From: Lichina pygmaea
Taxonomy: Eukaryota; Ascomycota; Lichinomycetes; Lichinales; Lichinaceae
DNA: 64,000 nt
Reading direction: 5' to 3'
NCBI GenBank assembly: GCA_963422465.1
Contig: OY730172.1
Location: 4,030,001-4,094,000 of the forward strand
Position numbers and translations under genes: made by a program. Numbering within the stretch: position 1 is the stretch's first letter; every line of letters starts with the position of its first letter. Below are positions 978 to 52,646 of this stretch, in pieces. The notes under the pieces were generated by a model that worked only from the letters and a program-made list of their open reading frames with translations, did not search any database and was not told the DNA's origin.

Positions 978-2686
978 GCGACGCGAAACGGCTGCTGACA
1001 CGCCACATCGATGCTGATGCTGGTGCTGATGCTGATGCTGGCTAGGCTAACCTTTTCCGTCGGTGACGGGGGGTTTAGAGTACATGTTGGTTTGTCTCGG
1101 TATGGCGAGGGGTGTTTAAGGAGGGGGTTGGATGCCCGAGGGGGATGATGGACGAAGCCTCCTTTGTACAATTAGCGTGGGCAAACATCCGGTGTTTACT
1201 GCTTTGTCCTTTACTATCCTGCACTGTACTGCGCTGTATCATACTGTGTTGTACTTCAATCGCAGTCGTCGTCGCAGTCGATCTGCATTATATGGTACGA
1301 GCGGTACGTATATTCGTACAGTAGCTTGGCTGCTTTGCGTCGACACTATCGACATGGATGCTGATCTGGATGTGGATATGGACATGGATGTGGATATGGA
1401 TGTGGATATGGATATGGACATGGTTATGGATGTGGATATGGATGTGGATATGGATCGACGTGGACATCGACATCGACATCGACATCACTGCGTAAAACAT
1501 GATTGTTCAAGACATTGTTGCGTTCGACATCCCTGTATTCGACAGGATTGTGTGAGACATCATTGTACAAGACATAGTTGTACGTGCGTACATACGTCCA
1601 AGATACGTCAAGCCGTTCCGTACAGCCATCCTATACGGCCATTCTCTACGGCCACTCTAGACACCCCCCCCCCCCCCCCCCCCCCGGCAAGCCACACTCT
1701 TTCTCCAAGCACATGCAACGACCCGATGCCTCTCTTCTTTCTCGCCGGAGATGAGGACCCGAGGACACCTACCCTCCTCCTCCATTGAAATTTTTGCCCT
1801 TCTTATTCTTCCTCTCATTCCCGGTTGGGTTCTTTGTTCTATATTCTCTCGGTAGGATGGGTGCCCGGCCCAGGGGGGGCCGCAGGGGAGGTTTTCATCC
1901 TAGGGGCAGGTGGCTAGCCACCTGGACCAAAGGTTTCCTTACCGCTTTCATAGTGATTATTCCCAGCATAATCTAGCTTGGCTAGTTTTTTTTTTTTAGA
2001 ATGGTGTAGGATCTCAATACATTACAATTCCCGGCTGGGAGGTCGGGAGGTTGGGAGGTAGGGAGCCGGAGAAACGCATGACGGTCGATTGCAGCAGTTG
2101 TCCGGGGTCAGATGCAGTTGCTGTCGAGTCTCTTGTGTAGCATGGAAGCTGTCAACCGGACGAACGTCCGCGTGTGGATGACAGTGTGGACGAGTGTCCG
2201 GGTGCAAAGTGCAGGGTCACGAGTGTACACGGGTGTTCCTGTGCAGAATGGAGTGCGTGGACAGGTACAGGTACGGGTGCGGTGATACTGGTGATATTCG
2301 GAGGAGGAAACAACGGCTGAGTTTGATGTCGTAGCTGTATTGCCTTTCTACCTGACATGAGCGCGCGCGCGACTCGCTTCGCCCTGGTGGAAACGCCGCG
2401 CGGCAGACACGGCACGGCAAATCCACATGCTGTACAATCTGAATGACCGCTCGGAGAGATGGAAAGAACAGTTCCCCGAGTCGAAGAGTAGAGGGAGAGA
2501 AACATGACAGTGACAGTAACCACAAAGCCGAAGAAAGCGCCAAACCTCCGGAGAATGGCTCTGTCCGGATGTGAGGACGGACGGGAAGAAGAGATGTAGA
2601 CACAAGACGAGCTTTTCGGGGAGACAGGGTATAGGAACACGACAAGGGTACAGACGCCGGGAACGCAAGAGATGACAGGTGCCGAA
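978..2686. other. Intergenic region with microsatellites, no gene seen
   Basis: No conserved coding signal was found. It holds a degenerate (GATGCT)n run near 1012-1042, the GATGTG/GATATG array described separately, a poly-C run at about 1664-1685, a short perfect hairpin (GGTGGCTAGCCACC) near 1909-1922, and a poly-T run at 1986-1998. The open frames here are low-complexity translations of the repeats. Confidence 0.6.
1350..1500. repeat. Degenerate (ATGGAYRTGGAT)n microsatellite
   Basis: A period-6/12 array of ATGGAT, GTGGAT and ATGGAC units, running into (CGACAT)n. It creates an artificial open frame of alternating Met/Asp/Val. No gene is inferred. Confidence 0.85.
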
Positions 2687-4042
2687 TCAGGTGCGTCGCT
2701 TGCGCCTTTCCGTGTATGTGTCTTTGTCGAAGCCTACGTGGGAATCGTGTCGGCCAGTGGTGAAGAAGGAGGGAATGTCAGAGTTCTTACCGTAGATGCG
2801 GGACCCTTTCTGCGTGTCCAGGCGAGGCGTTGGCATGAACAGTCGGTACGGTGCATGACTCCAATTTCTCAACGGAGCGTGGCACGCTCTGCCGGGCTTT
2901 GCGGAGAGGAACAGCCAGAACGCAGGATGGCCTGGACAGCAGACATGACGGTACATCTGTAGCACGACAGGATGCTGGCCGACGAAAGCTCGAAATAAGA
3001 CATACCCGCTTCAGCGCGAAGATGACCTGGTCGGCCAATGAGGTCAGTCCAGATCCTGGGTCGGACGGGAATGGGCAGGCTCACATCTGTCACCGTGATC
3101 GTCTTGCGGTTGGCGTGCTCCAAGCAAACGACAATGTCCCGTAGAAGCTGGGTAGTCGTGCTCGTCAGTACTGCGGTCCTCGGGTTGACGTAGACCAGGG
3201 ACTGCCGTCGTCTGACGGTGCCAATTCGAGTTTCGGCATGGACAAACACATACCGACCTGAGGCGGTCTCTGAGGGCGTTCCGCACCTCGTCGTAGATGC
3301 CGCCGCTTATCCTCTTGACGCCTCCGCGACGGGCGAGGCGGCTACGGTAGGATCGAGTCCAGCATCAACATATATTCTTCTCGGACGTGTTTGATGGTCC
3401 GTCGAAACGACGGCGACACAGGATCATGATTTATGATCGAGAGAAGCGACAGGAGACGAAGATCAAGACTCGAAGAGTAAACAACCACCGCATGTTTACT
3501 CCGGACGGCATTCGTGGTGTAAAACAAGTTTAGACTTGTTTGGACTCGCAAGACAAAAGCATAGATCCACGCCCTTACCGAATATCGCTCTTGGCTGGGC
3601 AGAACAGTAAGCCAAGCTTCAAGACATGACAATGTCATGGACGAGCGGCGCACTTACTGATTCCTTGGATCGTTTCCTTCAGCACCTCGCTGTACTCGTA
3701 CAAACTCAGGTCAGTCTCCACCTCTTTCGCATTTCAATCTCGTCGAAAATTCAGCGACTGCTGCCTGTTTGTTGCCACAACAAACGGACGGACAGACACG
3801 CGTTTGGTAAGACGGCAAGGAGTCCGGCGCAAGTCTATCCCGTACCGGTGGCGCTTCTGCGCCATGCCTCGACCGACGCCGAATCCACCGCCGCCCCATG
3901 CTTTCTTGCCGGTGCCGCCACCCCCGGCGGTCTTGCCGCCCAGCGTTGGACGACCTGCCCGCCGCGCGTTTGGTGATGTTGTCGCGTCGTTGGAGCGCAA
4001 CGGGCTTGATGGCGCCGAATCGGACGACCTCGGTCGAGCCAT
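2687..4042 (-). CDS. hH4v: Divergent histone H4 variant, eight exons
   Basis: Exons (minus strand): 4042-3846, 3689-3658, 3594-3579, 3341-3254, 3147-3085, 3026-3006, 2809-2791, 2733-2687; total 483 bp, 160 residues. Spliced, the histone fold reads continuously: KRHREVLKETIQGI, then TKSDIRRLARRGGVKRISGG, IYDEVRNALRDRLRSLL, EHANRKTITVTDVIFALKR and SRIYGFDKDTY. These align with canonical H4 segments KRHRK, RRLARRGGVKRIS, EHAKRKTVT, DVVYALKRQ and YGFGG. The N-terminus is extended by about 40 residues and ends in a Gly/Lys-rich tract. The C-terminus adds a basic tail, ERRKRRT. The residue matching H4 Lys20 is Glu. Known: filamentous ascomycetes carry a divergent H4 variant beside canonical H4. Inferred: specialised chromatin role. 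Start chosen as the first in-frame ATG before the Gly-rich tail. Three exons are only 16, 21 and 19 bp, which hides the gene from simple ORF scans. Confidence 0.88.
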
Positions 4043-4830
4043 CGCTGGCTCTGAGTAGAGTGCTAATGTCTTTACGGCCTGCTTTTCGGCGAGAGAGCTC
4101 GACAAATGCCAGAAAAGCGCTTGATGGTCCCGTCGCAGAGTGTCGGATGGAGCTGTTGGTCTTCAGAGAGCCGGACAGTCTACGGTTGGCGGGGTTTTGG
4201 TTGGTGTTTGGTATTGGCGCGGGCTTATGTCAGCAGCGATACATATGTACGAGGTGTCTAGCGGATATAACGTTCGATTGATACAAGCAAAAGTCGGTTG
4301 TAGAGCGGCATGATCAAAACTCTTGAGACAGACGTTTGCTCTTGTACGAGCAATACGTACGTATGTACGGCCGTACGTACGTACGGCTTAGTATTCTGTA
4401 TGCCCCCTGCTGGCATCAATGACTGCCTGGCATCGTGCCTGCATGGAGTCTGTGTTGCTGGTGCATCAAGAAAGTCGGGGACCTGGTCCACGATGTCGCA
4501 ATTTTCATCGTGATCTCACCAGAGTTTTTGTACGGGTCTTTTGATACTGTTGCGGGTACTCCAGCTTACCAAGCGTACTCATGTAACGTTATATCCGCTA
4601 GACACCTCCTACTCGTACCATCGTGATGGTCCGAGTAAAGACCGCCCCGACAGGACTGCTGTCCATGAAAGACAACGTCTTTGCTGGCCACCGAATCGTG
4701 TTCGCGGTGCTCTATACTGTACTGCGCGCACGCGCATGCAGCCATGGTGACAGCGCGACAGGGCTTCTCCCTCAACCGTACAGGTCATGTCGATGCAGAT
4801 GCCAATCATCAGCTGGTCCAAGTGTTTGCG
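4043..4830. other. Intergenic, 5' of the H4 variant
   Basis: Separates the start of the H4 variant from the 3' end of SVF1 (both minus strand). Much of it is taken up by the small inverted-repeat element at 4251-4608, which contains a GTAC-rich palindromic core. No other feature was seen. Confidence 0.5.
4251..4608. mobile_element. MITE-like element with perfect 24-bp terminal inverted repeats
   Basis: The left end begins GAGGTGTCTAGCGGATATAA and continues to position 4274. Its exact reverse complement closes the element at 4585-4608. The body is 358 bp, has no coding capacity and includes a GTAC palindrome tract at about 4354-4384. A diverged relative lies at about 36,505-36,875 and shares the internal block GGCATCAATGACTGCCTGG. 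Target-site duplication is not clear (TAC on both sides is possible). Perfect ends suggest a fairly young non-autonomous DNA transposon; the superfamily is unknown. Confidence 0.8.
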
Positions 4831-6205
4831 TCACGATATAAACACGGCCTCGCAGAATACTCGGCCCTCCTCCTCCGTCTTGTCTCCGCCGACGTCGAGA
4901 GTCAAGGTCATGGGGGCAGAGAACTGCGAGGAGCGTAAGTGACTGACGGAGGGGCAGAGAGGGGGATGGGCAGGTCGCACCTGGTAGATGTACGGCCTCG
5001 TGCCGGCCACGCCGCCAACGATCGACTTGACGAAGCCCGGCACCTCGGCCATGACGTCGACCCGATCCAATCGGTCCCCAAGCGCCCCCGCGAGGGTCGC
5101 GTGAACCTCACCGCCGTCCTTTGCGCTGCCATCCCAGACAAACTCGACCGCGCCGGGCTGTGGCCAGTCGTTCTCGTCGTCGTGGTCGATCTGGGTATGG
5201 GTCGCCGTGCTCGAAGCGCCAGCGAATACAATCTCGCCGTGACGCACTATGCCTCCGACGTTGACGACGGTCGAGCCGTACGAGGGCGGCGTGGTGTACT
5301 CCATCATGACGGCCGAGTAGGCGGGCGACTGGAAGTCGACGAAATTCCACCTCGCGGCTGTGCGAGGAGTCAGTCAGCGGTGTGTTACCGCCGAAGCGAC
5401 ATCATCGACATACCGGCGTGGTGCGGCTTCATCCCCTGCAACGCGTACACGAAAGATCCGCGCCCCTCGAAGTCAAGCTCGCCCGCCTTGGTGATGATCG
5501 AGCCTTCCACTCGATTCCGCGGCCAGAAGGCGTGGCGCATCGAGCCCCACGGCTGCTCCGGGTCGGTGCCAAAGGAGGTGGTGCCATTCTTGCCGACCTG
5601 GAAGCCCGGCGCCGTCCTCGTGAAGGCCAGATTGACGATGCTGTCTTCGTTGACGGCCGACTTGATCGTGTACTGCGTGCCGTCCTCGGACAAGGTGACG
5701 GCAACATCATCGGCGTAGAAGGAAAGCCGGCCGTCGTCGAAGCCGTAGTTCTCCAGAGCATCGGCCGACCACAGGGTCGGCTGCTTGCGGTCGGGGTAGA
5801 ATATCTTGGTGTTGAATTGGCATGTGATGCGAATGCCGCTGGAAGACCGGTCAGCATCACTCGTCGATCGAATGCCGGGTGGGCTTCGATCTCACGCGAC
5901 ATTGCTATAGATCACTTGAGCCATGGCCAGATGTCCGGTTTCGGCCATGACGTAGAACGTCTGCGTCTCGACGCTGGTGGACTCCAGCGTCGCCCATCGC
6001 AGGTCCTCCTTCCCGAGCTCGGTGTAGGGCACGCTGCCGCACTGTTCCGCGACGGAGGCAATGGCGGAAGCGCCGTAGATGGGTTCTTGGGTGCCCGCGA
6101 CATTTGCAAGTCTGCCGGTCGTGGACCGGTCGTGAGCAACGGTGCCAGCCGACCCAAGACTCGCGGGCGCTGCGAGACTCACTGCTGTTTCGCCCAGTTG
6201 AACAT
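4831..6205 (-). CDS. svf1: Survival factor 1 (Svf1) family protein
   Basis: Exons (minus): 6205-6183, 6111-5896, 5838-5414, 5357-4981, 4923-4831; 1134 bp, 377 residues, all frames joining cleanly. The start is [20 protein letters not shown], the typical short first exon of fungal Svf1. Conserved stretches follow: [57 protein letters not shown] and [20 protein letters not shown]. Known family role: Svf1 proteins have a lipocalin-like fold, promote survival under oxidative and cold stress in yeast, and take part in sphingolipid/ceramide handling. It shares a 277-bp divergent promoter with the uL11m gene, in which an inverted TTACGTA pair occurs. No oddities were seen. Confidence 0.9.
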
Positions 6206-6482
6206 CTTGCTCGTCTAGCGGGGGGAGATCATCCAAGATGTCTCAAACGGCGGGCATGTGGTCGGGCAACAGCTCGATATCCGGTCCATGATCTGACGGC
6301 TGTTGCATAAATCGGAGACCGCTTTATACCGTAATCTAATGTACGGCACATTACGTAGAGCTACGTAATTTCTCCAAGATAGGTAGCGCGCCTTCGTTCC
6401 GGCCGCTTTCCCACGTGCCGGCGACAACCCGAGCGCGCGAACATCTCCGCGACGGCTCTCTCCTCCGTTCTCGATCGTCGAC
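6206..6482. promoter_or_regulatory. Divergent promoter, SVF1 / uL11m
   Basis: A 277-bp spacer between two start codons on opposite strands. It contains TTACGTA-N4-TACGTAA at 6351-6368, resembling paired bZIP (ATF/CREB- or Yap-like) half sites, directly between the stress-linked SVF1 and the mitochondrial ribosomal gene. Binding is inferred from the motif only. Confidence 0.5.
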
Positions 6483-7008
6483 ATGGCACGAAGACAGCTG
6501 GCGGCCGAGCAGGTGGTCAAACTCATCGTCGGAGCCGGCCAGGCCAGCCCCAGCCCGCCGGTCGGCCCAGCCCTGGGCAGCAAAGGCGTCAAGAGCATGG
6601 ATTTCTGCAAGGTAGGAAGCTCGTCGCACCTGTCCAAGCCTGAACCGGACCGCCGCTGACTTGGGGAGGGGGCAGGACTTCAACGCACGGACAGCACACA
6701 TGACGACGGGCGTGCCCATCCCAGCACGAGTCACCGTCCGTCCAGACCGAAGCTTTCACTTCGAGCTACGGTCACCCACGACGGCCCACATGCTGCTGAA
6801 GGCGGCCAACGTCAAGGAGAGGAAGGGCAAGGTCCGAGGCGTCGTCTCGCCGGGCAGCGAGACCATCGGCGAGGTCAGCTTGAAGCACGTGCACGAGATC
6901 GCCAGAATCAAGCAGTCGGAAACGCGCTTGTCCGGTCTCTCGCTCGAGGGTCTGTGCAGATCGGTCGTCGCTCAGGCGCGGTCGATTGGCATCAAAGTTG
7001 TTCCATAG
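6483..7008 (+). CDS. mrpl19: Mitochondrial large-subunit ribosomal protein uL11m
   Basis: Exons 6483-6611 and 6676-7008; 462 bp, 153 residues. The N-terminus [20 protein letters not shown] followed by [20 protein letters not shown] is the bacterial-type L11 N-domain (proline-rich substrate-binding segment for elongation factors). The C-domain has [20 protein letters not shown] and the ending [19 protein letters not shown], the normal L11 rRNA-binding end. It acts in the mitoribosome at the GTPase-associated centre. The first residues are basic and can act as an import signal. The intron 6612-6675 starts GTAGGA and ends GGGGGCAG. The ATG is preceded by TCGAC and lies just upstream of the conserved L11 start. 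Confidence 0.92.
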
Positions 7009-17493: not shown

Positions 17494-18742
17494 ATGTCCT
17501 CCAAAGAGGAAACATGTGCGCACCTGCGCTCGCCGAGCTACACGACCTTTGCGGTGTCGCTGTGAGTTCCGTTTCGCGCCCAGCCATGCCCTATCTAGCC
17601 ACGGGCGACTTCCCCTCCGCCAAGCCAACTCGCAGCCGCTGACCCTCTTGTCGACGCCCAAGCATCATCCTGCTCGGCATCGTCGTCTCGTACGTGCCGC
17701 AGCACTACCGCATCGTCCAGCGGCGCTCGTCAGAGGGCATCTCGCCTTACTTTCTCCTGCTCGGATCGACCGCCGGCTCCAGCGCGCTCGCCAACATGCT
17801 CCTGCTGTCGAGCACCGTCACGGATCTGCGCTGCTGTCGCGTCGTCTCGGGCTTCGAATGTTTTGCCGGCGTGCTCGGGCTCGCGCAGGTGGGAGTGCAG
17901 TGGTTGGGATTCAGCGTCATGTGGGTCTCGTCGGGGCCGTCTGCTTCTCCTCTCTCTCTCTCTCTGTCTCTCTCTCTCTCGATCCGGCTGTCGGTTGGGC
18001 CGGCTACACACGTCTCTCCTCCCGAGAAGAGATGCCGTTCTGTTCCTCCGCCGAAGCGAGACACTGACGCGTACATGCTCTCAGCCTCCTCCTCTTCCTC
18101 GTCTTCTTCCCGCGCGCGACGCCGCACGTCTTGCGCCGACCCCAACAGCCACACTCCCTCCGGCTGGCACTGCTGGTGACCTTCATCTACCTCGTGCACC
18201 TGGTCGTGACGTTCCTGCTGGCGGTCGTCCTCGCCAAGGCTCGACCGAGCGCGATAGCGGGCTACGCCATCGCGCACGGCCTCTTTGCGTCGGTCCTGAC
18301 GACGCTGCAGTACCTGCCGCAGCTGTACACGACCTACCGGCTGCGCGCCGCCGCGAGCCTGAGCATCCCGATGATGCTGATCCAGACGCCCGGCGGCTAC
18401 CTGTGGGCCGTCAGCCTCGGGCTCCGCGTCGGCTGGGCCGGCTGGAGTCTCTGGCTCATCCCCGTCGTCGCCGCGACGCTGCAGGGCGTCCTGCTCCTCA
18501 TGGCCCTGCGGTTCGAGTTTGCGGCGCGCCCGTCGCGGACGAGCGGCGTCGACGGCGCACGGCAGACGAAGGCGGGTCGTGGCGCTCCCGCCGCCGGCCA
18601 GCCCGACGAGGTCGAACCTGACCGTCTCGACGACGACGGCGGCCATGAGCACGACGCAACAGGTCCTGCCGCCGAAAGAAATTCCGAGCGGGAGCCGTTG
18701 CTCGGCTCGGCAACAGCAGCCACCAAACACGACGCTCCTTAG
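17494..18742 (+). CDS. PQ-loop repeat membrane protein (cystinosin/SWEET-like fold)
   Basis: Exons 17494-17561, 17663-17920, 18085-18742; 984 bp, 327 residues. The first PQ-loop repeat is SYVPQHYRIVQRRSSEGISP and the second is TTLQYLPQLYTTYRLRAAAS, each with the Pro-Gln pair. About seven hydrophobic helices are visible, including LLGIVVSY, ALLVTFIYLVHLVVTFLLAV and WSLWLIPVVAATLQGVLLLM. A cytosolic charged tail follows and ends in REPLLGSAT, where EPLL resembles an acidic dileucine vacuolar sorting signal. Known: fungal PQ-loop proteins export amino acids or act in the vacuole. The substrate is not predictable here. The start ATGTCC was chosen because the spliced first exon (CAHLRSPSYTTFAVSL) matches the expected lumenal N-terminus. 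Intron 2 contains a (CT)n run. Confidence 0.85.
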
Positions 18743-19343
18743 CGATGAACACGACTAGACTTTTACGCACGGTATCGTGTTGTTGTTGTTATCATGATGC
18801 GACGAATCTTGATCACTCCTCTAACCCCGTCCGTCCGTCCATCTTCTTGTCCCTCGTCCTTCTTCTTCTTCTTCCTCCTCTTCTTCTTCTCCTTCCTCCT
18901 CTTCTTCTTCTCATCCCCCTTTCTCCCCTCCTCTCTTCCTTTCCCTCCATCCATCCATCCATGCACGCACCGTAGAGGACCAATCACCTACACCACATAC
19001 AGAATATACAGCATATGCAGTGCAGTACAATACATATGGTCCCATCAAATCCCATTGTCCGCGGTGCTGCCATCCACCCCTCTGAATCCCCCCGTCTGAG
19101 ATCCCTCACCTAAGACCTCCCCGCCTGCCACGACCACACCGTACTACGTACGTACTGTACGTCACTGCGTGACTGTCGTGCTACCACCGATCCTCGTACA
19201 AGCACCCGCACCGTCCCACCGCAGATACGGACCAAGTCCGTCGTTGCGATGTCGCAGATGGGGACAGCGCCTCGTCGACAGCGACGTTCTCGGGAGGGTC
19301 TTGCTGTACTATCGATGCTGTGCTCCCTCCTTCTTCTTCTCCT

Positions 19344-19380
<37 letters not shown>

Positions 19381-20112
19381 TCCCTTCCCTTTCTTTTCTT
19401 TCCTTTTTTTCTCTCTTTGTATCTCGCTGTGTAGATGTGTGTGAAGAGGGGGAGAGAGAAGGGAAAGAAAGAAAGAGAGTGGGAAAGAAACAGAGGAAAA
19501 GAGAGGGAGAGAAGGAGGGAGAGAGGGTCTACTGTAAATCCCCTTCCGCGGCCACAGGTATTTGTATGGTTTATGCTAGAGGACGGGCGTGAGGATGAGA
19601 GTGAAGCGTCTTCTTCTTCCTCTGCCCTTTCGTCCACCTCTACGTACTGTACGTACAACATGTCGGTCACGTTCGTCGTCCGTGTCATCGACACGGACAT
19701 GGGACGGTCGAGTCACGATCCAGACTCTCGTGTGATCTGCGGTGGACCGTGGGTTCTGTGCACTACGCTGCGGTACAGCAAACTGTGGGAACCACCGGTG
19801 CTGTGGGACTGCGCCGTAGGACGATACTGGGTGGGTTCTATACAGTACATCGAATTGAATCTAAAACCGTCTCGCTCCAATGTGTCTTTCGTAGCTGAAT
19901 ATACAAAGAGTCTTCCACAAGGATGCAAGCCTCTTCCACCAACCAAAGAACCAATGTACCCAACGGCACACATGTCGTATTGGAGACAGGACGGTGACGA
20001 TTGTGAAAGCGGACCAAATGGCCGGATGAGGTCATCGAGGTCGAACGATGCAAAAGTCGTCTTGGTCACGAGACGGCATCCGTCAGACCACGACGCCTCC
20101 GAATCGTGACGC
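18743..20112. other. Convergent intergenic region with pyrimidine tracts
   Basis: Lies between the 3' ends of the PQ-loop gene and the LPMO gene. It contains CTTCTT-rich tracts at 18860-18965, (TC)n at about 19350-19378, and a purine-rich GGGAGAGA tract at 19448-19530 opposite in composition. GTAC motifs occur at about 19146-19160 and 19640-19655. No gene was seen. Confidence 0.5.
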
Positions 20113-27517: not shown

Positions 27518-29256
27518 CTGGGATGGGTTTCGGTCCAGGTCCGGGCGCGACGAACGACCAGCACATGATCGCCGGGTCCGACAGCCTCATCAGCATCTTC
27601 GACGTGACGCGCGACGGCCAGGGCCCGATGGCGCAACTGCCGACGATCCCGTCGCGCCGCAAGAAGATTGTCGGCGGCGGCGTCGGCATCAAGGGCATCG
27701 TCAGCGCCCTCGGCCTCAGCCGCGACGGCGTCCTCGCCGCCGGAACGTTCACGAGACAGTTTGCCCTGTACGACCGCGGCGGCTGCGGCGACTGCATCGC
27801 CGTCGTCGCCCTCGCGCCGGTCCGAGCGGCTCGCGGTGCGGCTGGCGGGCGTGGATCGGTTCGCGGCGGTGGCGCTGGAGTCGGTGGTGGTGGTGGCGGC
27901 ATCACGCAGCTCCTGTGGAGCCCCTGCGGCCGATATCTGTACGTGGTCGAGCGCAGAAGCGACGCCATCGTCTGCTACGACATCCGTGGCACGGGCACGC
28001 GTCTGGCGACGTTGGTCGGTCGGACGGCCGGCACGAATCAGAGACTCGGCGTCGACGTCGTCGTCGCCGGCGACGACGGTCGTGCACACGGCCACGGCCA
28101 CGGCTACAGCCACGAGATCTGGGCCGGAGGCGCAGACGGCGTCGTGCGCGTCTGGAAGGGTCCTCCTCTCTGTTCTTCGTCATCGGCTGCTTTTGATTGG
28201 GGATCTGTGTCTGTGTCTGGGTCTGGATCTGGTTTGGGATCTGGTCTGGGATATCCGTCTGATTCGAACGAGCCACATGCCACCCGAGATCATGTCGTGA
28301 GACCGACCTGGGAGATGAAGCTGCACGATGGTGAGTCTGCACCTTTTCGACGACTCTGCTCGGAACGATTTCTTTTTTCGGCAAGAAGACTGTTCAAGAG
28401 GACTGTCAAGACGAACATCAAGACGACGCTACAGAGAGGAAGAGTGCAAAAGACTCACAAAAGGCCCATGTTTCCAGATGCGATCACGTCGACCATCTTC
28501 CATCCCTTGTCCTCGTCCTTTGGCCTTCTCGAAGCCAGTCGCCGTCGCTCACCGTCATCTTCCTTCAATCGTCCGCCTCATCCCCACTCTCCGCCTCAGC
28601 CCAACTCTCCATCTGAATCTCAATCTCCACCTCATCCCGGACGTCAGTCGCCATATCCGACTCGGACAATGTTTCTATTCGCGACGTGCTCTGGGCAGAG
28701 GAAGATACCGGATATCGTGACGACAGCGGCAGCGGCCAACGACCGTCACGCTCGCCGCTGTCGTCGTCGTCGTCGTCGTGCCGGGAGGCGGGAGACGTCC
28801 GGGACTGTTGATGCTGCTGCTGTGAGGCAGACGTCCAGGACTGCTACTGCTACTGCTGCTGCTACTGCTGCTGCTACTGCTGCTGCTACTGCTGCGAGGA
28901 TGCGTGGCACACAATCTGATCGGAACACGCGGTCTGATCGGGACGACGGTGCTCGACATCCATCTGGCGGCGCGGGGCATGGACTGGGCCTGGGCCTGGG
29001 TCTTGACGCCGACGTCGAGACCGAGAGTGAGAGTGGGAGTGACACCAACGCTGACACTGAAACCAACGACAGTGAACATCACACGAGAAACAGTGATGAT
29101 GACGATGATGACGATGATGATGATGGTGACAGCAGCGGAGGCGGAGACGCCTTCTCGAGTCTGTCATCGTCATCGTCATCTTCCCGTTCCTCCTCCCATT
29201 CTTCTTCCTCCTCCTCCTCCTCCTCCTCCTCCTCCTCCTCCTCCTCGCCATCGAGC

Positions 29257-29327
<71 letters not shown>

Positions 29328-29394
29328 CCAGGCACGTCCCCCTCGTTCAGAAGACCATGACTGCAGTAGTCTAAAGATATGGACATGTTCATGA
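25936..29394 (+). CDS. WRAP53/TCAB1 (Swt21)-like WD40 protein with homopolymeric C-terminus
   Basis: Exons 25936-26087, 26382-26427, 26622-26859, 27332-28330, 28478-29394; 2352 bp, 783 residues. Conserved blocks: RDFFKSAQW-SSDGTCILTNS, PPDLLD, APEPIYATALYPYFNLQDP, STTLFVSSP, LLASYPLIHGPTETYITPHS, IAGSDSLISIFDVTRDGQGP, LPTIPSRRKKIVGGGVGIKG, AAGTFTRQFALYD and IWAGGADGVVRVWKG, then DAITSTIFHP, LFATCSGQR and a terminal SLKIW. Known family role: WD40 proteins that bind CAB-box small RNAs and telomerase (animals) or act with U1 snRNP (yeast Swt21). The last exon codes Arg-rich, Ala/Thr-rich, Asp10, Ser-rich and about 27-Asn tracts. Intron 3 (26860-27331) is unusually long (472 bp). The exon 3 acceptor at 26621 has the alternative 26654-26655, which would shorten the protein slightly. 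Confidence 0.8.
28830..29329 (+). repeat. Chain of coding microsatellites in the last exon of the WD40 gene
   Basis: In order: a TGCTAC/TGCTGC array (Ala/Thr) at about 28838-28895, a GATGAC-type run (Asp) at about 29095-29125, a TCC/TCATCG Ser array at about 29160-29250, and (AAC)n at about 29256-29330 (Asn). All are in frame with the WD40 protein. Confidence 0.88.
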
Positions 29395-44755: not shown

Positions 44756-46064
44756 ATGGAAGAAGAAGGAGAAGATGACTTCTACGAGCCCTCGCCGTTG
44801 CCGTCTACTGCCGTCGACGTGGGAGCCGTCTCCGTAGCATCCCAACAACGCCCAGGTGATAACAGGACCGCCAACATCGTGGCGCCCACGGTTATATCCA
44901 AGTCAGCTGCTGATCTGGAAGAAGGGGAGGAAAAGGATGAGGGAGAAGACGAAGACGGTGACGGTGAAGGAGCTGACGAGAGCGACGACTCTGTACTTGC
45001 TTCCCTTCCCTCCCTTGGCTTCATCTCATCCGCGTATCCGTAACACCCGACTTATCTCATCGTGTAGGACATTGACATCATCACGGAGAGGAAAGACGGT
45101 AGCAAACCGGAACCGCCTCTGTGAGTGAAGCTGATGCCCAAGATGCTGCGCCAACGTGTCTGACGGAGGTCGTCCTTGAAGCAAAGCCGGCCGGCACCAT
45201 CTTCTTCGCCGGCTCTCATCTCGGCCATCTGCGCCGGGAACGCCAACGGGCGTTCGGGACACAGCTATCCACGGAAAGACAGAGCCGGCTGCCAAGATAG
45301 CTTCGGCTGCGCGCTCAGGGGCAGACTATCCCGCCGTACGCTCGTCCAAGCTCGATGTCGATCGTATGCCCACATACCAGCCTTTGGACAAGCCCTTGAG
45401 CGAGATTGATATCGACAAAGGTGAGTGTCGTTGCAATCCCTTGCCTCAAAGACGGCCCTCGATGGTTGACCGCGATGAAGATCTCAAGGAGCATGAGAAA
45501 GCGTGGCGCATTCCTGGCACGGATGTCAGCGACTTCTTCAATTATGGATTCGATGAGTTCACCTGGACTCTGTACTGCCTGAAGCAAGAAAAGATGCGGG
45601 ACCAAGCTCGGGAAGACAACGCTCTGTTCAACGCCGGCATGATGATGGGCGTCGAAGGTCCCTCCCTGGGTGAGACTGGCGCTGCCTCTGTGCCGCCGAA
45701 TGCCCCGCAGCAGCGCTTGAATCTGCCTCCGGTGCCGGGAATGCCTGACATGCCGCCGGAGATGCAAGCGATGATGGCCCAGCTGGCCTCGGGCTTTGAC
45801 CCATCGCAGCTTGCTCCGATGGACCCCGCAACGTTCGTGATGCCGCCAGCGGGGGCCGTTCCACCACCGCCGCAAGCAGGCCAAGGAGCTGTTCCCCAGG
45901 GCCCGGCTTTTGGCCACGGTCCGCAGGCCTTTGGCAACCAGGCGCTGAATGCACCGCAGATGCCGTATCCTTTCGATCCTGGAATGGGAGGACCCGACGG
46001 TGGTCGTAATCGTCCTGGCAATTTCTCCGCTCGAGGACGAGGCGGGGGTCGACGGCAGTGGTGA
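44756..46064 (+). CDS. fip1: Polyadenylation factor FIP1
   Basis: Exons 44756-44992, 45068-45120, 45182-45420, 45481-46064; 1113 bp, 370 residues. The acidic N-terminus ([14 protein letters not shown]) and [17 protein letters not shown] precede the Fip1 motif: [20 protein letters not shown] followed by [21 protein letters not shown] Pro/Met/Gly-rich tail ends in an RGG-like segment ([13 protein letters not shown]). Known role: an unstructured subunit of the cleavage and polyadenylation factor that tethers poly(A) polymerase and binds CPSF30/Yth1. The exon 3 acceptor was chosen for frame continuity and a TCTGAC branch point; it is the least certain junction. Alternative exon 3 starts would change only the poorly conserved linker. 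Confidence 0.92.
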
Positions 46065-46743
46065 GGACACGCGTCCCTTGACGAGCAGCGTCTTTCAAGT
46101 TCAAGAGACTTTTTTCCTGGCGGCTGTGCCGTAGGCACGGCGAGTGGAGCTGTCTAGCCGACAGGACGACCGGCTGCTTGTCTTGACATGCGAACTGCCT
46201 CTGAGATCACATGTCAACACGGATGCTCATTGCTTGAAGATATGGCTGCACTTGGGAAACTCGCCTCCTCATACCGCTGGACTCGTTCTTGCTACGGCAT
46301 CCGGCCTGCTGCCCAGCTTGAGCGTGCTCTGCTCCTCGGGTATCAAATCACTCCTTGCCAAGTCAGACAAGCTTCACCATCAACGTCAAGGGAAGATACT
46401 CGTCCTAGAGAGGCCCATTGTGTACAATGAAGGCGCCTGCCGGCTGCCAGGAGCAAGAGGATGACTCCTATCTCCTGGAAGATCATGTGGAGGCCGTCGA
46501 GGCCCCAAGTCCCGTGGGGCGTGACGCACGCTGGCATTATGGCTTAATTCACCATCGTCACCGTTGTCCCAGGGTGCATCTGGACACGTCAGTGGCCATT
46601 GCTCTTCAAACACTCGATTGTCACGGGGTTGCCGCTGCTATTAGCGCCTGATGCTAGGCCTGGAATTCCCCATTGAGCTTTCATAACGGCGTTCGCCTTT
46701 CCCGAGGGTTGGATTGCTGGAGATGGAAATGTTGATTCACTCC
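46065..46743. other. Intergenic, 3' of FIP1
   Basis: FIP1 3' flank and the upstream region of the repeat gene. Open frames show no family features. The last ATGs before the repeat gene lie at 46722 and 46729, just upstream of the TATA box. Confidence 0.45.
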
Positions 46744-46759
46744 AACAGCTCCCTCCCCA

Positions 46760-46765
46760 TATAAA
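46760..46765 (+). promoter_or_regulatory. TATA box of the repeat-rich gene
   Basis: TATAAA within CCCATATAAAGGGC. It is followed after about 20-30 bp by CT-rich sequence (TTTCTCCACTCTTCATTTC) typical of fungal transcription start regions. A start site near 46790-46800 is inferred. Confidence 0.65.
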
Positions 46766-46789
46766 GGGCTTTCTCCACTCTTCATTTCG

Positions 46790-47952
46790 AAATTTCAGTT
46801 CTCCAGACCATCGAACTATCAAGCTTCGACAGCACACTTCCAGCTTTCAGTCTTCATACAAAGCACACACTCATCTCTCGATACCGATCACAGCAGTTCG
46901 GAGCACACTCTTATTCTTCAGAACCTTCATCAGGATCTCTGCTCCTTCGTCTCTCGATCTCGCATTCTGGCAGACGAAAACACACTTCGCCGGCTGCAGC
47001 TACTGGTCGTTTCAAACGGTCCAGGATAGTTTTTATCACGGCACTTCCGGTTGACACAAACTTTAGCCCTTCTCAGGCTTCTCCTCTTACCTCCATTCTC
47101 CTCACTTCCGACCTCGAGCACCTGCATCGCTTTTCCGTCTTCGAGTCGGACATATTCAAGGTCAGATTCTACAGAACTTCTCCGGGAAGGTTCGGCTGTC
47201 CTTCTACGCATCTCACACACAGTCCCGACAAGCCGCACTTTCAGCCGCTACGGAGTGGTCCGCTCTCCCGTCTTAGTGGATCAGAAACACGTTCGCGTCG
47301 TTCACCTACGACCCTCGTTGTATTCGCACCGCCGTTTGGACCCGAGCATCTAGACGGTAGCCTATTCGGATACCGATTTTCTCACCCGCCATCTTTTCGA
47401 ACACCGTTGCGTACGGTCAGCGTCCAGTCCACAAACGGTCGCTCATCATCGTCACCGAGGCTCGAGTAGTCTCGCTACTCTTTCCGGGACTCGTCATCCT
47501 CACCTTCACTCTCTCTCTACGTTCATTGCTGCTCGCAGCACGCACTCAGTCGTCAGACTGCATCTCGTTCTCAAGGGCTACTACCGTCTCTTGAGGTCTC
47601 TACACGTCCTCTCTTACCACAAATCTGATCATTCAGACTATCTCCCTCATATTCCTGGATTTTTACGGCTCAGGCTCTGTCATCGATTTGGCCTTCGTCT
47701 TCTTACTCTCTTCACACATCTCACGTCCTTTAGGGCTTCTCTCTCGCTCGACCTAACTCACAGACTCACAAGACGACATCGTTAAGGCACAGGTACTTGG
47801 GACCAACCTTGCCTCCTGCACTTGCGTCCGATAAGCCCTATCAGGTACAGCGTGCAGAGCTCTTGTTTGTTGCTTCAAGCATCAGCCGGCTACTCAGCAA
47901 CGTCATTCACCAGCAGTGGCATACTCCGTCGTTGTGATCTCAGCATATCAAG
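46790..47952 (+). promoter_or_regulatory. Very long ATG-free, pyrimidine-rich 5' leader
   Basis: From 46732 to 47952 there is no ATG on the plus strand, whereas its complement CAT occurs about 25 times. The first ATG is the start codon of the repeat gene. With the TATA box at 46760 this indicates a 5' untranslated leader of about 1.15 kb. Embedded introns cannot be excluded, since GT and AG sites exist. Composition is CT-rich (TCTC, CTTC words) throughout. Confidence 0.75.
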
Positions 47953-50051
47953 ATGTCTCGTCAAGGTTCACCGAACGAGCGTGCAGCGCAGTCTGGTCAC
48001 GAGCCCCCAATGGGACCCGCAACGACCGACGCCGAATTGAGTTTGACCTACCAACAGCTGCTAAGCGGCGATGATGAAAGGTCCCCCGGAGTCTTCGGGC
48101 TAGCTGATCACCATGAGGGAGAGCAGCCGTATGGAAGCCTCGGACAAGCCAACCACCACGAGGAAGAGCCGCCGTATGGAAGCCTCGGGCTAGCCAACCA
48201 CCACGAGCAAGAGCAGCCGTATGGAAGCTTCGGGCTAGCCGACCACCATGAGGAAGAGCAGCCGTATGGAAGCCTCGGACTAGCCGACCACCACGAGGAA
48301 GAGCTGCCGTATGGAAGCCTCGGGCTAGCCAACCACCACGAGCAAGAGCCGCCGTATGGAAGCCTCGGGCTAGCCGACCATCACGAGGGAGAGCCGCCGT
48401 ATGGAAGCTTCGGGCTAGCCGACCACCATGAGGAAGAGCAGCCGTATGGAAGCCTCGGACAAGCCAACCACCACGAGCAAGAGCCGCCGTATGGAAGCCT
48501 CGGACAAGCCGACCACCACGAGCAAGAGCTGCCGTATGGAAGCCTCGCCAACCGCCCTGAGGAGGAGCGATTGTTTGGAGCCTTCGGAGTTGCCAACCAC
48601 CATGAGCAAGAGCTATCGGCCTGGGTACACGCGACGCCGGCGGAGGCTGCGCCATCAGCGTACACACACGGGACATCGGTGGAGGCTGCGCCATCGGCCT
48701 CGACACACGCGATACCCGCGCATGCTGAACCATCGGTTTTGACGCACGCGACATTGGCGGAGGCTCAGCAGTTGTGGCTACAGGGCTTCGTCACGGCGGG
48801 TCGGCCGCATTTCCCCGGTAAGCGGCTCCTATGTCTAATTTTCAAGAAGGCCGCTAACGAAGGTGCGTCTGAAGCATACGCGGGCAACTATTTCCTGGGA
48901 CTCGGGGACGTGGACCCGTCGCTCTTGGACCTCCGGGGAGGAGACGAGCAAGGCCAAGGTGCGGGAGTACCAGACACTGTCCGGTACTCCCACCAGGGCC
49001 AGGAGGAGGACGCGGCCTCGGGGGCCGATGCTGGGGCCGGCGCCGGTGCTGACGACACCGTCGACCAAGCCGCCGGCGCCGGGGGATTCGTGCACGAGTT
49101 CCCCAACTGGGAGGCGGCTCAGGCCGCCATGAATGCCCACTTGCGCCTGGGTCCGGCCAACGACCCAACCTTCCCCCGGAACGCCGGCCAGGACCGACAA
49201 TGTGTGGAGCGTCTGTCGCTCGCGATTTGCGACGTCTCCAACACATTGGACCTCCCCCCCGGCGCTGTCGCAGCCGGGGGGAAGGTCCCTCAGGCCTACG
49301 GCAAGTTCGCCGAGGGGAAGTACAGCCGGGCCCAGGTGCAGATGGTGGCATGGAACGTGCTGGTAGGTCAATCGAACACCTGACATCTTCTTGGTCGAGG
49401 CTAAGCAAAGTCGTGTCTCAGTACAAGGCAAAGGAGAGATGGACTTCGGGGGGTGTCGTTGCCCCTTGGCAACGGACCCGGAGGCCTCAACGGTTTGGGG
49501 CCTTCCGGTCTCTCATCGACGAGATCTGTCGCGTGCTCTCCGTGAGTATCATCAGATTCGAAAGGCACATGAGGCTTTACTGACTTGATGGAATGCAGCA
49601 ACGGAAGACAATCGCAAAGCGATTGTTCGATCCCGAGTTCACCAAAGAACTCGTGGACAACCCGGGCGCGCAGCTCCAGGTATGTGAATGTCTTGTTTCC
49701 CCACCACTGATAGCATTTCGTTGATGCAATGCTGACTTATCTGCCTAACAGCGCGCGGCGCAGAACAAGCGCCTCAACACCAACAAGGCCCGGCAGATCC
49801 GTCGGGGCCGTCAGGCGCTGAGCGACGAGGCCCCCGCCCCCGACGCCAACGCCCAGGCGGGGGACGCGCCAGCGCCCGCGTCGGCGGAGGCTCCTGCACC
49901 TCCCGCCGACGACGGTGCCCAGGCCGACGAAGACGGCACTGACGGCCCCGATGTGGCTGCCGGCTTGGTGTCGCAGGAGGAGGGCGAGGCGCCCTCCCCT
50001 CCGCCTGCGCCCGCCGAAGAGACTCGGGGCACCAAACGGCGGCGTCGTTGA
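47953..50051 (+). CDS. Unrecognised protein with 15-residue tandem repeats and basic C-terminus
   Basis: Exons 47953-49362, 49422-49541, 49599-49679, 49752-50051; 1911 bp, 636 residues, every exon in phase 0. The second intron has a TACTGAC branch point. The N-terminal third holds ten near-perfect copies plus about two decayed copies of a GLADHHEEEQPYGSL unit. A Thr/Ala-rich linker of degenerate repeats (SAYTHGTSVEAAP) follows. Then comes a globular-looking region with EFPNWEAAQAAMNAHLRLGP, CVERLSLAICDVSNTLDLPP, KFAEGKYSRAQVQMVAWNVL and FRSLIDEICRVL. After it is a basic segment (QNKRLNTNKARQIRRGRQ), an Ala/Pro/Glu tail and a final KRRRR. Nuclear location is plausible from the basic ends. I recognise no family. 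A strong TATA promoter and long leader precede it, and a 91-bp repeat array follows the stop. Confidence 0.7.
48097..48624 (+). repeat. 45-bp coding tandem repeat (15 residues)
   Basis: Ten units of 45 bp run from 48097 to about 48546. They differ mainly at GLAD/GLAN/GQAN, EEE/EQE/EGE and the Gln/Pro/Leu before PYGS. Two diverged units follow (ANRPEEERLFGAF; GVANHHEQELSAW). The interleaved variant pattern suggests unequal exchange between copies. Confidence 0.92.
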
Positions 50052-51402
50052 GTCGCTTCTCGGGCTCGGCGGCGTCGGCCCCCCAAGTTCTTCGGCGGCT
50101 TCCGTTGGGAGGAGCGTAGACAGATCGCGGCAGCCCCCGGGTCCGAGACCCCCCCGGTCCACGCCTTGCCTTGTGCAGCGAACAGCGTTCCATGATTCGT
50201 CGGCGGCCTTTGCGACGGGGGGTTAGCCAGAGCGCGGCGCCCCCCCAGCCTCTCAGTCCCAAGTCCCTCGTGCCCCGTCCCTCCTGGTCCTCGCCTTGGT
50301 CGGCTAACAACGTCTCGTAGATTCTCGGTAGCCGTCGTCGGGGAAAGGGGTCAGCGAGAGCGACACCCCCCCATCCTCGTCTTGCTCTGCCCGGCCAACA
50401 ACGTCTTCTACTGCGCCGTTGGCTTTTTTCGGGGGGCTAGCCAGAACACGATAGTCCTTCCGGGCTCACGTCCCGCTCTACGAGGCCAACAGCGTCCTCT
50501 ACTTCGTCGGTCGCCTTTGTTGGGGGGCTAACCAGAACACCACAGTCCTCTCGGATTCACGTCTTGCTCCGCTTGACCAACAGCATCCCCTACTTCGTCG
50601 GTGGTCTTTGCTGGGGGGCTAACCAGAACATGACTGTTCTCCCTGGTTCACATCTTGCTCCGTGCAACTAACTGAAATCGTCAACAATGCTTCCCAATAC
50701 TAATCCACTACCAATACCATCAGTTTGGACATCAACGTGTTCTCTTGTTCCGCTTTGATACTAAATTCTAGTAATCGCTGTGATGGCAAGTGGGCACCCT
50801 GTTGTTCACCTCGCGATACTTGTAGTCCCTGTCATGATGAGTAGGCTCTCTATCACCAACCACTACTGATCTGTAGCCTCTTTACCGTTTTGTAGTTTCC
50901 ATGATGTGCAGGCCTTTTCTTCTTTCCTTCTTGCTATTCTTGTGATGCTGCTATTCCTGTGACGATATGTGATTTTATTCTTCCCTACTGTCTTGCATCA
51001 AGTCTCCACCCGGTAATTGATTTGTGCTACAACAAAGTAGACGCCTGTAGATGGGTGCCTTAGAGCGCCTCCTATCTCAGCGCCCACTCGGTATGGCTCT
51101 ACTTGTACCTTCGTACATACGTACGTCCCAGTACATACGTACTTCCGTTAGCCTGCGGTACCGGTACGTGTGTACCTTAGCCAGTCTCCAAGCTCTACTG
51201 GTACCGTAGACATCAGTCTGGATCTGCTTCTATTCGCGCTAAACCGTCACGGGTGTGTTTCTATAGGACCTCATCAAGAGTAGCTGTGTGAAAAATTCGA
51301 TGTTGTAGGTGTTGGGGCATGAAGCCGGATTTGCTCCTGGCCGATTGCTGCTTCTACAGCCAACACCTTGTGCTCCTCTGCTGTCTTCATTCGCCAGCCG
51401 AA
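50052..51402. other. Intergenic: 91-bp array then non-repetitive spacer
   Basis: The tandem array takes up about 50093-50670. The remaining spacer to the TTC1 start has a GTAC palindrome cluster at about 51113-51165 and no recognised gene. Confidence 0.5.
50093..50670. repeat. Degenerate ~91-bp tandem array beginning 42 bp after the stop codon
   Basis: Six units can be aligned, starting at about 50093, 50198, 50324, 50414, 50505 and 50596. The last three are exactly 91 bp apart and share CGTCGGT-G-CTTTG, GGGGGGCTAACCAGAACA, TCACGTCTTGCTC and CCAACAGC-TCC-CTACTT. The first three are more diverged and include insertions. It probably lies in the 3' untranslated or terminator region of the repeat gene. 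Confidence 0.85.
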
Positions 51403-52646
51403 ATGGAATCCAAAGCGGTCGACAGCGACGTGAAGCCAGGTGCGGAACCCACTGAAGATACACTCGCCGAGACAAGACCGGAGTTGAGGCTTCCCCCCGA
51501 GGAGGAGGCTGTAGGTTCGAACGCATCGATCCTCCCAGCGGGAAGGTAGGAAGTACTGATGAAATGGTTTCTGGCGTATGAAAGGCACTACTCGACGAGT
51601 CCAACAAGCAGAAGTTACACGCAAATCAACTATTCAGCTCGGCAAGGTACTCGGAGGCTATCCAGCAGTATGACAAGGCCCTGTCGTCGTGCCCAGACTA
51701 TCTGGAGTACGAAGTTGCCGTGCTTCGAAGCAACATCGCAGCCTGTCACATCAAACTCGAAGACTGGGAAAGCGCCATCAAGGCGGCAGATGCTGCCCTC
51801 GAAGGGCTCGACCGACTGGAGCGAAGGGGCAAGGATCATGCCATCGAGGACAAGAACGACGACAGGAAGAAGGAGAGCGGGGACCCGACAACCGAAGAGT
51901 GCGAAGAAGAGGACATAATCAGCCCCGGTGCCCAAAAAAGTGGACCCAGCCCTGTTCCCAAGGAGCAGGAGAAGAAAGGACCAAGCGATGAAGACATCTC
52001 GCGCATCAGGATTAAAGCGCTGATGCGCAGAGCCAACGCCCGACTGGAGTCGGGAGGATGGTCAGCGTTGTCGGGTGCCGAAGAAGGTACCCTATGCCCT
52101 GTCGTCCACGACAAGCCCCATATCATGGGACGTTTCCCACGAAGACTGGGGGTTTTTTTCCCTCGTCGTCCCTGCAGCGCTGACACGGCGGACACCGTTT
52201 ATTCAGACTACAAGATGCTCTCGAGCATGTCTGGCTTGCAAGCCCGGGACCGGAAAATGGTGATGCAACAACTACGAACACTACCGTCCCGCATCGACGT
52301 GGCCAAGCAGAGGGAGGTTGGCGAGATGATGGGCAAGTTGAAAGAGGTAAGCTTGTACAGTTACGACTATTCTTTACGTCAGACCCTCCCCCTCCGACAA
52401 GTTTTCCATGCCGCTCTAAAAGCTGCTCGGGGGGGGGGGGGGGGGGGGAGCGATGCTGCTGCTGATGAGTGTGCTCTCTTGCTTACTTTCCCCTTCACCA
52501 TCGACCTACAGCTTGGCAACGGCCTGCTCAAACCCTTTGGCCTGTCGACCGATAACTTCAACATGGTGAAGGACGAGGGTTCTGGCGGCTATAGCGTCCA
52601 GTTCAACCAAGGAGGTGGGAATCAAGGTGGTGGTAGGTCGGGGTAG
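51403..52646 (+). CDS. ttc1: TTC1-like tetratricopeptide repeat protein
   Basis: Exons 51403-51510, 51585-52086, 52207-52346, 52512-52646; 885 bp, 294 residues. After an acidic N-terminus, TPR helices read LLDESNKQKLHANQLFSSAR, YSEAIQQYDKALSSCPDYLE, AVLRSNIAACHIKLEDWESA and IRIKALMRRANARLESGGWS. An acidic Lys/Glu-rich loop interrupts the array. The C-terminus LKEL-GNGLLKPFGLSTDNFNM followed by GSGGYSVQFNQGG is the conserved end of the TTC1 family. Known: TTC1 is a small TPR adaptor linked to Hsp70/Hsp90 and Ras/Galpha signalling in animals; its fungal role is little known. Intron 1 was chosen at 51511 (phase 0, TACTGAT branch) over a later GT that breaks the frame. The last intron contains a 20-bp poly-G run. 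Confidence 0.85.

Follow-up and report, generated by a model that had tools for sequence, protein, structure and literature searches.

The window, that is, the whole 64-kb stretch of DNA analyzed here, comes from an assembly of 32.47 Mb in 8 contigs. Its genes contain introns, and domains of Fip1, Nup49, and a protein kinase were recognized in it above the curated cutoffs, with a TPR match below them; the source is accordingly likely to be a filamentous fungus, and the preliminary description had likewise assumed a fungus. The gene of interest lies on the plus strand and consists of four exons (exon 1, 47953 to 49362; exon 2, 49422 to 49541; exon 3, 49599 to 49679; exon 4, 49752 to 50051), which are separated by GT-AG introns and join in frame to encode a protein of 636 amino acids. 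Exon 1 contains about ten 15-amino-acid repeats, and exon 4 gives the protein a basic end, TKRRRR, followed by the stop codon. No Pfam family was detected in the protein at an E value of 0.01. Database searches, the first of which scored the 7,995 candidates sharing the most words, returned only P0001, which is the protein encoded in the window itself, and a single relative, P0002, which is 77% identical over 64% of residues 240 to 580. The C-terminal half may resemble uncharacterized proteins of other Sordariomycetes, but this did not show in these searches. The two proteins share their first 15 residues (MSRQGSPNERAAQSG), which makes it very likely that translation starts at 47953. An N-terminal extension from a non-AUG start is excluded by an in-frame stop codon at 47935, just upstream. 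A 91-bp tandem repeat of approximately 2.6 copies (50393 to 50662), which may belong to the 3' region of the gene, begins about 340 bases past the stop codon.

Upstream of the start codon, the plus strand is devoid of ATG for 1,221 bases (46732 to 47952), as the preliminary description had stated. The last ATG triplets before this block are at 46723 and 46729, and the first one after it is that of the gene itself at 47953, in agreement with the claim that the block ends at the start codon. CAT, which had been estimated to occur about 25 times, was counted 27 times in 46732 to 47950. When both strands of the window are considered, this is the longest run without ATG. Among eight triplets compared in the window, GTA is absent over a longer run, 27939 to 29366 (1,427 bases from start to start).

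The block had also been described as beginning at a TATA box. A box (TATAAAGG) is indeed present on the plus strand at 46760 to 46767, and is the presumed core promoter, but it lies 28 bases inside the block. TATAA does not occur within 46790 to 47952. On both strands of a 264-kb sample of this one genome, composed of the window and 20 stretches of 10 kb, TATAAA occurs 34 times and TATAAAGG 4 times. With the distance to the next ATG counted from 30 bases downstream of each box, the box of the block has the longest ATG-free stretch among the 34 TATAAA sites (1,163 bases, followed by 535 and 211). We divided 46065 to 48352 by a two-break Markov segmentation to which no feature positions were supplied. 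The best breaks fell at 46735 to 46770 and 47970 to 48000 with dinucleotides, and at 46730 to 46740 and 47960 to 47970 with single bases. One edge of the block thus lies near the TATA box and the other near the start codon. Across the upstream edge, the number of ATG triplets drops from 11 in 46065 to 46759 (695 bases) to 0 in 46790 to 47952 (1,163 bases). An internal break near 47810 was not significant, as 14 of 200 simulations gave one as good. Assuming that transcription starts approximately 30 bases downstream of the TATA box, the transcription start site (TSS) would be near 46790, and 46790 to 47952 would constitute a 5' leader of about 1.16 kb with no ATG, 61% pyrimidine, and TG at 0.52 of expectation.

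The expectation of 18 to 19 ATG triplets given in the preliminary description was too high; base composition predicts 12.8 and dinucleotide composition 5.1. Dinucleotide-preserving shuffles of 46732 to 47952 contained a mean of 5.1 ATG triplets, and 64 of 20,000 contained none; for 46790 to 47952, the mean was 4.9, and 16 of 3,000 shuffles were without ATG. The block is the longest run bounded by two ATG triplets in the 264-kb sample, in which five further runs of this kind measure 826 to 1,089 bp. Of the three that were inspected, one is repetitive and without an ATG-started open reading frame (ORF) of 100 amino acids (locus L006), one is mostly coding DNA (L018), and one lies upstream of an ORF (L016). 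Only one other ATG-free run in the sample is at least as long (L014, 8711 to 10000), and it is cut by the edge of the locus. This run, at least 1,290 bases in length, is antisense to an open frame of 721 codons (L014, 7835 to 10000, minus strand), which on visual inspection resembles a non-LTR reverse transcriptase. When runs are ranked by their dinucleotide-based expectation, the block is only 11th of 150 runs longer than 300 bp.

We also compared the distances from ORFs of at least 200 codons to the nearest upstream ATG in the 264-kb sample (67 ORFs, one of which has no upstream ATG in its locus). The gap of 1,221 bases ranked first among 66 ORFs, and the runner-up measured 640. As for control triplets, 2 of 67 ORFs were preceded by a TAG-free stretch exceeding 800 bases and 1 of 66 by an ATG-free one, while none of GTA, AGT, GAT, TGA, and CAT was absent over such a distance in any of the 67. 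A general depletion of ATG in this genome was not seen upstream of 58 to 66 other ORFs. The ORF set is a weak control, because true starts are mixed with internal exons.

The block is also poor in TG. The TG ratio over 46732 to 47952 is 0.51 of expectation. Among 1.2-kb segments of both strands (n = 4,818), the median ratio is 1.08 and the minimum, 0.53, is found at 46601 to 47800, overlapping the block; among 600-bp segments (n = 10,098), the minimum of 0.37 is at 46901 to 47500, inside it. The richness in CT alone is not the cause of the TG scarcity, because the seven other segments listed as richest in pyrimidine keep ratios of 0.78 to 1.27. The scarcity is confined to the larger part of the block, with 20 TG versus 51.4 expected in 46770 to 47790, and TG is normal in 47790 to 47952 (11 versus 9.5 expected). 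Despite this normal TG content, the last 160 bases before the start codon contain no ATG (2.1 expected).

Compared with base composition, the NTG triplets (observed/expected) were ATG 0/12.8, GTG 5/11.3, CTG 12/20.6, and TTG 15/17.5. Other near-cognate triplets were not short (ACG 17/15.0, ATC 27/23.4, AAG 12/9.3, and AGG 14/8.2) or only slightly so (ATA 11/14.5 and ATT 17/19.9). Compared with dinucleotide expectation, CTG and GTG occur as expected and TTG exceeds it (15 versus 9.1). As CTG, GTG, and TTG are not depleted once dinucleotides are taken into account, the evidence for a stepwise clearing of near-cognates is no more than suggestive. Low counts were likewise obtained for TGT and TGA in the block. 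When the 64 triplets are ordered by z score against dinucleotide expectation, ATG is the third most depleted, with GCG and AAT lower. Stop triplets number 14 in 46790 to 47952, versus 23.8 in dinucleotide shuffles, and were as few in 7 of 3,000 shuffles. Scanning does not predict this shortage of stop triplets, and no coding signal explains it either. The TG shortage exceeds what the loss of ATG can explain, and much of the emptiness in ATG accompanies this wider deficit of TG rather than an avoidance of ATG alone.

A coding exon or pseudogene was considered and rejected, as each of the six stretches scored within the block had negative codon log-odds in every one of its six frames. The power of this score is low, because the known exon stretch 47953 to 48252 scored only 0.00 in frame; values of 0.12 and 0.11 were obtained for 48800 to 49300 and 45400 to 45900, respectively. 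GC contents by codon position hardly vary in the longest open frame of the block (0.53/0.55/0.48), versus 0.75/0.47/0.70 in exon 1. The longest open stretch in the leader, 225 codons, was equaled in 310 of 3,000 shuffles and so does not exceed chance, and a Pfam search with the two longest plus-strand open frames of the block gave no match. An Rfam search of 45000 to 52000 yielded no matches at the gathering score. With simple repeats skipped, the block found no copy other than itself in the 32.47-Mb assembly at an E value of 0.001 or below.

The preliminary description had raised the possibility of a structured or protein-binding leader. Structure was not supported, with fold z scores ranging from -1.9 to +1.2 in nine 200-nucleotide windows over 46790 to 48149. 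Protein binding received no support from the two motifs considered; the motif CNYTCNYT, of the type targeted by Ssd1/GUL-1, occurs at shuffle level in the leader (7 versus 7.1; the median for such stretches of the window is 1), and PUF-type motifs are absent. Elsewhere in the window, the plus strand of 18593 to 19755 contains 21 CNYTCNYT in 1,163 bases, the most among stepped stretches of the window, and pyrimidine makes up 70% of the 600 bp that begin at 18801.

We consider it probable that the block is an unspliced, AUG-free 5' leader of approximately 1.15 kb that is scanned to the AUG at 47953 and has been purged of upstream starts by selection. Transcription would begin near 46790, driven by the TATA box at 46760, and small ribosomal subunits would scan the leader from the cap, so that the AUG at 47953 would be the first start codon they meet. 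Selection would have purged upstream AUGs, since any one of them would misdirect initiation or make the mRNA prone to decay. In Cryptococcus, according to the sections of PMC7049704 consulted, upstream AUGs accompany lower translation and more nonsense-mediated decay. The long, CT-skewed leader avoiding upstream starts, as put forward in the preliminary description, fits the edges of the block, the drop from 11 ATG to none, and the shuffles; the shortage of TG covers much of the same ground. Dedicated translational control, also proposed there, is unproven and would not be needed for this account. A stronger version, in which AUG and, by degrees, the NUG near-cognates (GUG, CUG, and to a lesser extent UUG) have been cleared to form a 1.1-kb runway for leak-free scanning, seems to us quite unlikely.

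Composition and chance provide a different explanation, in which a block with a skew between its strands and little G and TG lacks ATG by accident, without any selection on starts. We judge this unlikely, but several results speak for it. The block was singled out because 64 kb was read for oddities, and the dinucleotide expectation of 5.1 corresponds to a p value of about 0.003 for one preselected triplet. Its rank is only 11th of 150, the GTA-free run in the window is longer, and the sample contains the five other ATG-free runs approaching it in length (826 to 1,089 bp). What chance leaves unaccounted for is that the TG scarcity is itself extreme and not a simple result of CT-richness, and that the edges of the block coincide with the TATA box and the start codon.

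Transcription might instead begin within the last 100 to 200 bases before the gene, the CT-rich block being promoter DNA or a separate noncoding transcript. The return to normal TG density after about 47790 would agree with this, as would the CAAG that directly precedes the ATG at 47953, since a CT tract followed by CAAG is a mark of some fungal start sites. Both arrangements are found together in Candida albicans EFG1, which has long and short transcripts starting near -1100 and -100, as described in the portion of PMC6034079 available to us. The internal break at 47810 was, however, not significant (14 of 200 simulations), 46790 to 47952 contains no TATAA, and nothing about promoter DNA would explain why ATG is missing from a single strand (0 ATG versus 27 CAT). 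On balance, we regard a start site this close to the gene as distinctly unlikely. Removal of part of the leader as a 5' untranslated region intron, for example, from a weak donor near 47411, appears very improbable, even though CTAAC and CAG on the plus strand at 47753 to 47763 are good candidates for a fungal branch point and its acceptor, respectively. Donors of the form GTRNGH are absent from the leader (0 versus 1.9 in shuffles), but this absence is not significant because 425 of 3,000 shuffles also lacked one; in addition, introns have no need to lack ATG.

An AUG-free leader of this length can be compared with those known from yeasts. The long transcript of C. albicans EFG1 has a leader of 1,139 nucleotides, for which the consulted text of PMC6034079 mentions one AUG uORF, of 4 codons, which strain SC5314 lacks and the other strain does not require. 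Going by this mention of a uORF rather than by a count of AUGs, both would be fungal leaders of approximately 1 kb with hardly any AUG. If transcription of the block starts near 46790, there would be no functional AUG over the roughly 1 kb from the TSS to the main start, as in an EFG1-type leader. EFG1 differs in being another gene of a distant fungus, with start sites that have been mapped and a leader that, according to the same text, has been proven to raise translation. The leaders of C. albicans UME6 (3,041 nucleotides) and WOR1 (2,978 nucleotides), as quoted in that part of PMC6034079, resemble the block in being very long, a comparison made by length; theirs lower translation, possibly via structure, while the block displays no unusual predicted structure. 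From the portion of PMC7049704 consulted, upstream AUGs are depleted in the short leaders of Saccharomyces cerevisiae, as they are in the block, but those leaders average 84 nucleotides, and their combination of shortness and very low AUG density is described as an exception among fungi. On these comparisons, EFG1 would already be a precedent for long, almost AUG-free leaders in fungi, to which the block would add a TG scarcity that is unexplained. We found no AUG-free leader of this size from filamentous fungi in the titles and abstract openings of the papers listed by our literature searches, which is not proof of absence.

Should the block be a leader over its full length, it would offer a naturally occurring case in which to test the distance that fungal ribosomes can scan without loss, and a gauge of the strength of selection against false starts, including near-cognate NUG. 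Its low TG content would be a simple signature for finding similar leaders genome-wide. If composition alone is responsible, the block is a warning that ATG-free runs need to be judged against dinucleotide content. The case of the window may not be alone, as the ATG-poor region upstream of an ORF in L016 is a possible second clean leader. In this stretch, which was selected for being ATG-poor (4603 to 5791, minus strand), there is 1 ATG in 1,189 bases, versus 12.9 expected from base composition or 7.5 from dinucleotides. It differs from the block in that there is no TATA[AT]A on the strand of the gene in 4300 to 6600, the pyrimidine excess is weaker (0.54), and the TG ratio is 0.74. Under the stronger, quite unlikely version with a runway also cleared of near-cognates, clean leaders could form a class in this fungal lineage, and their length could serve as a timer or loading zone for scanning subunits. 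The gene that follows the L016 stretch on the minus strand has an ORF at 2389 to 4602 encoding 737 amino acids, with no Pfam family.
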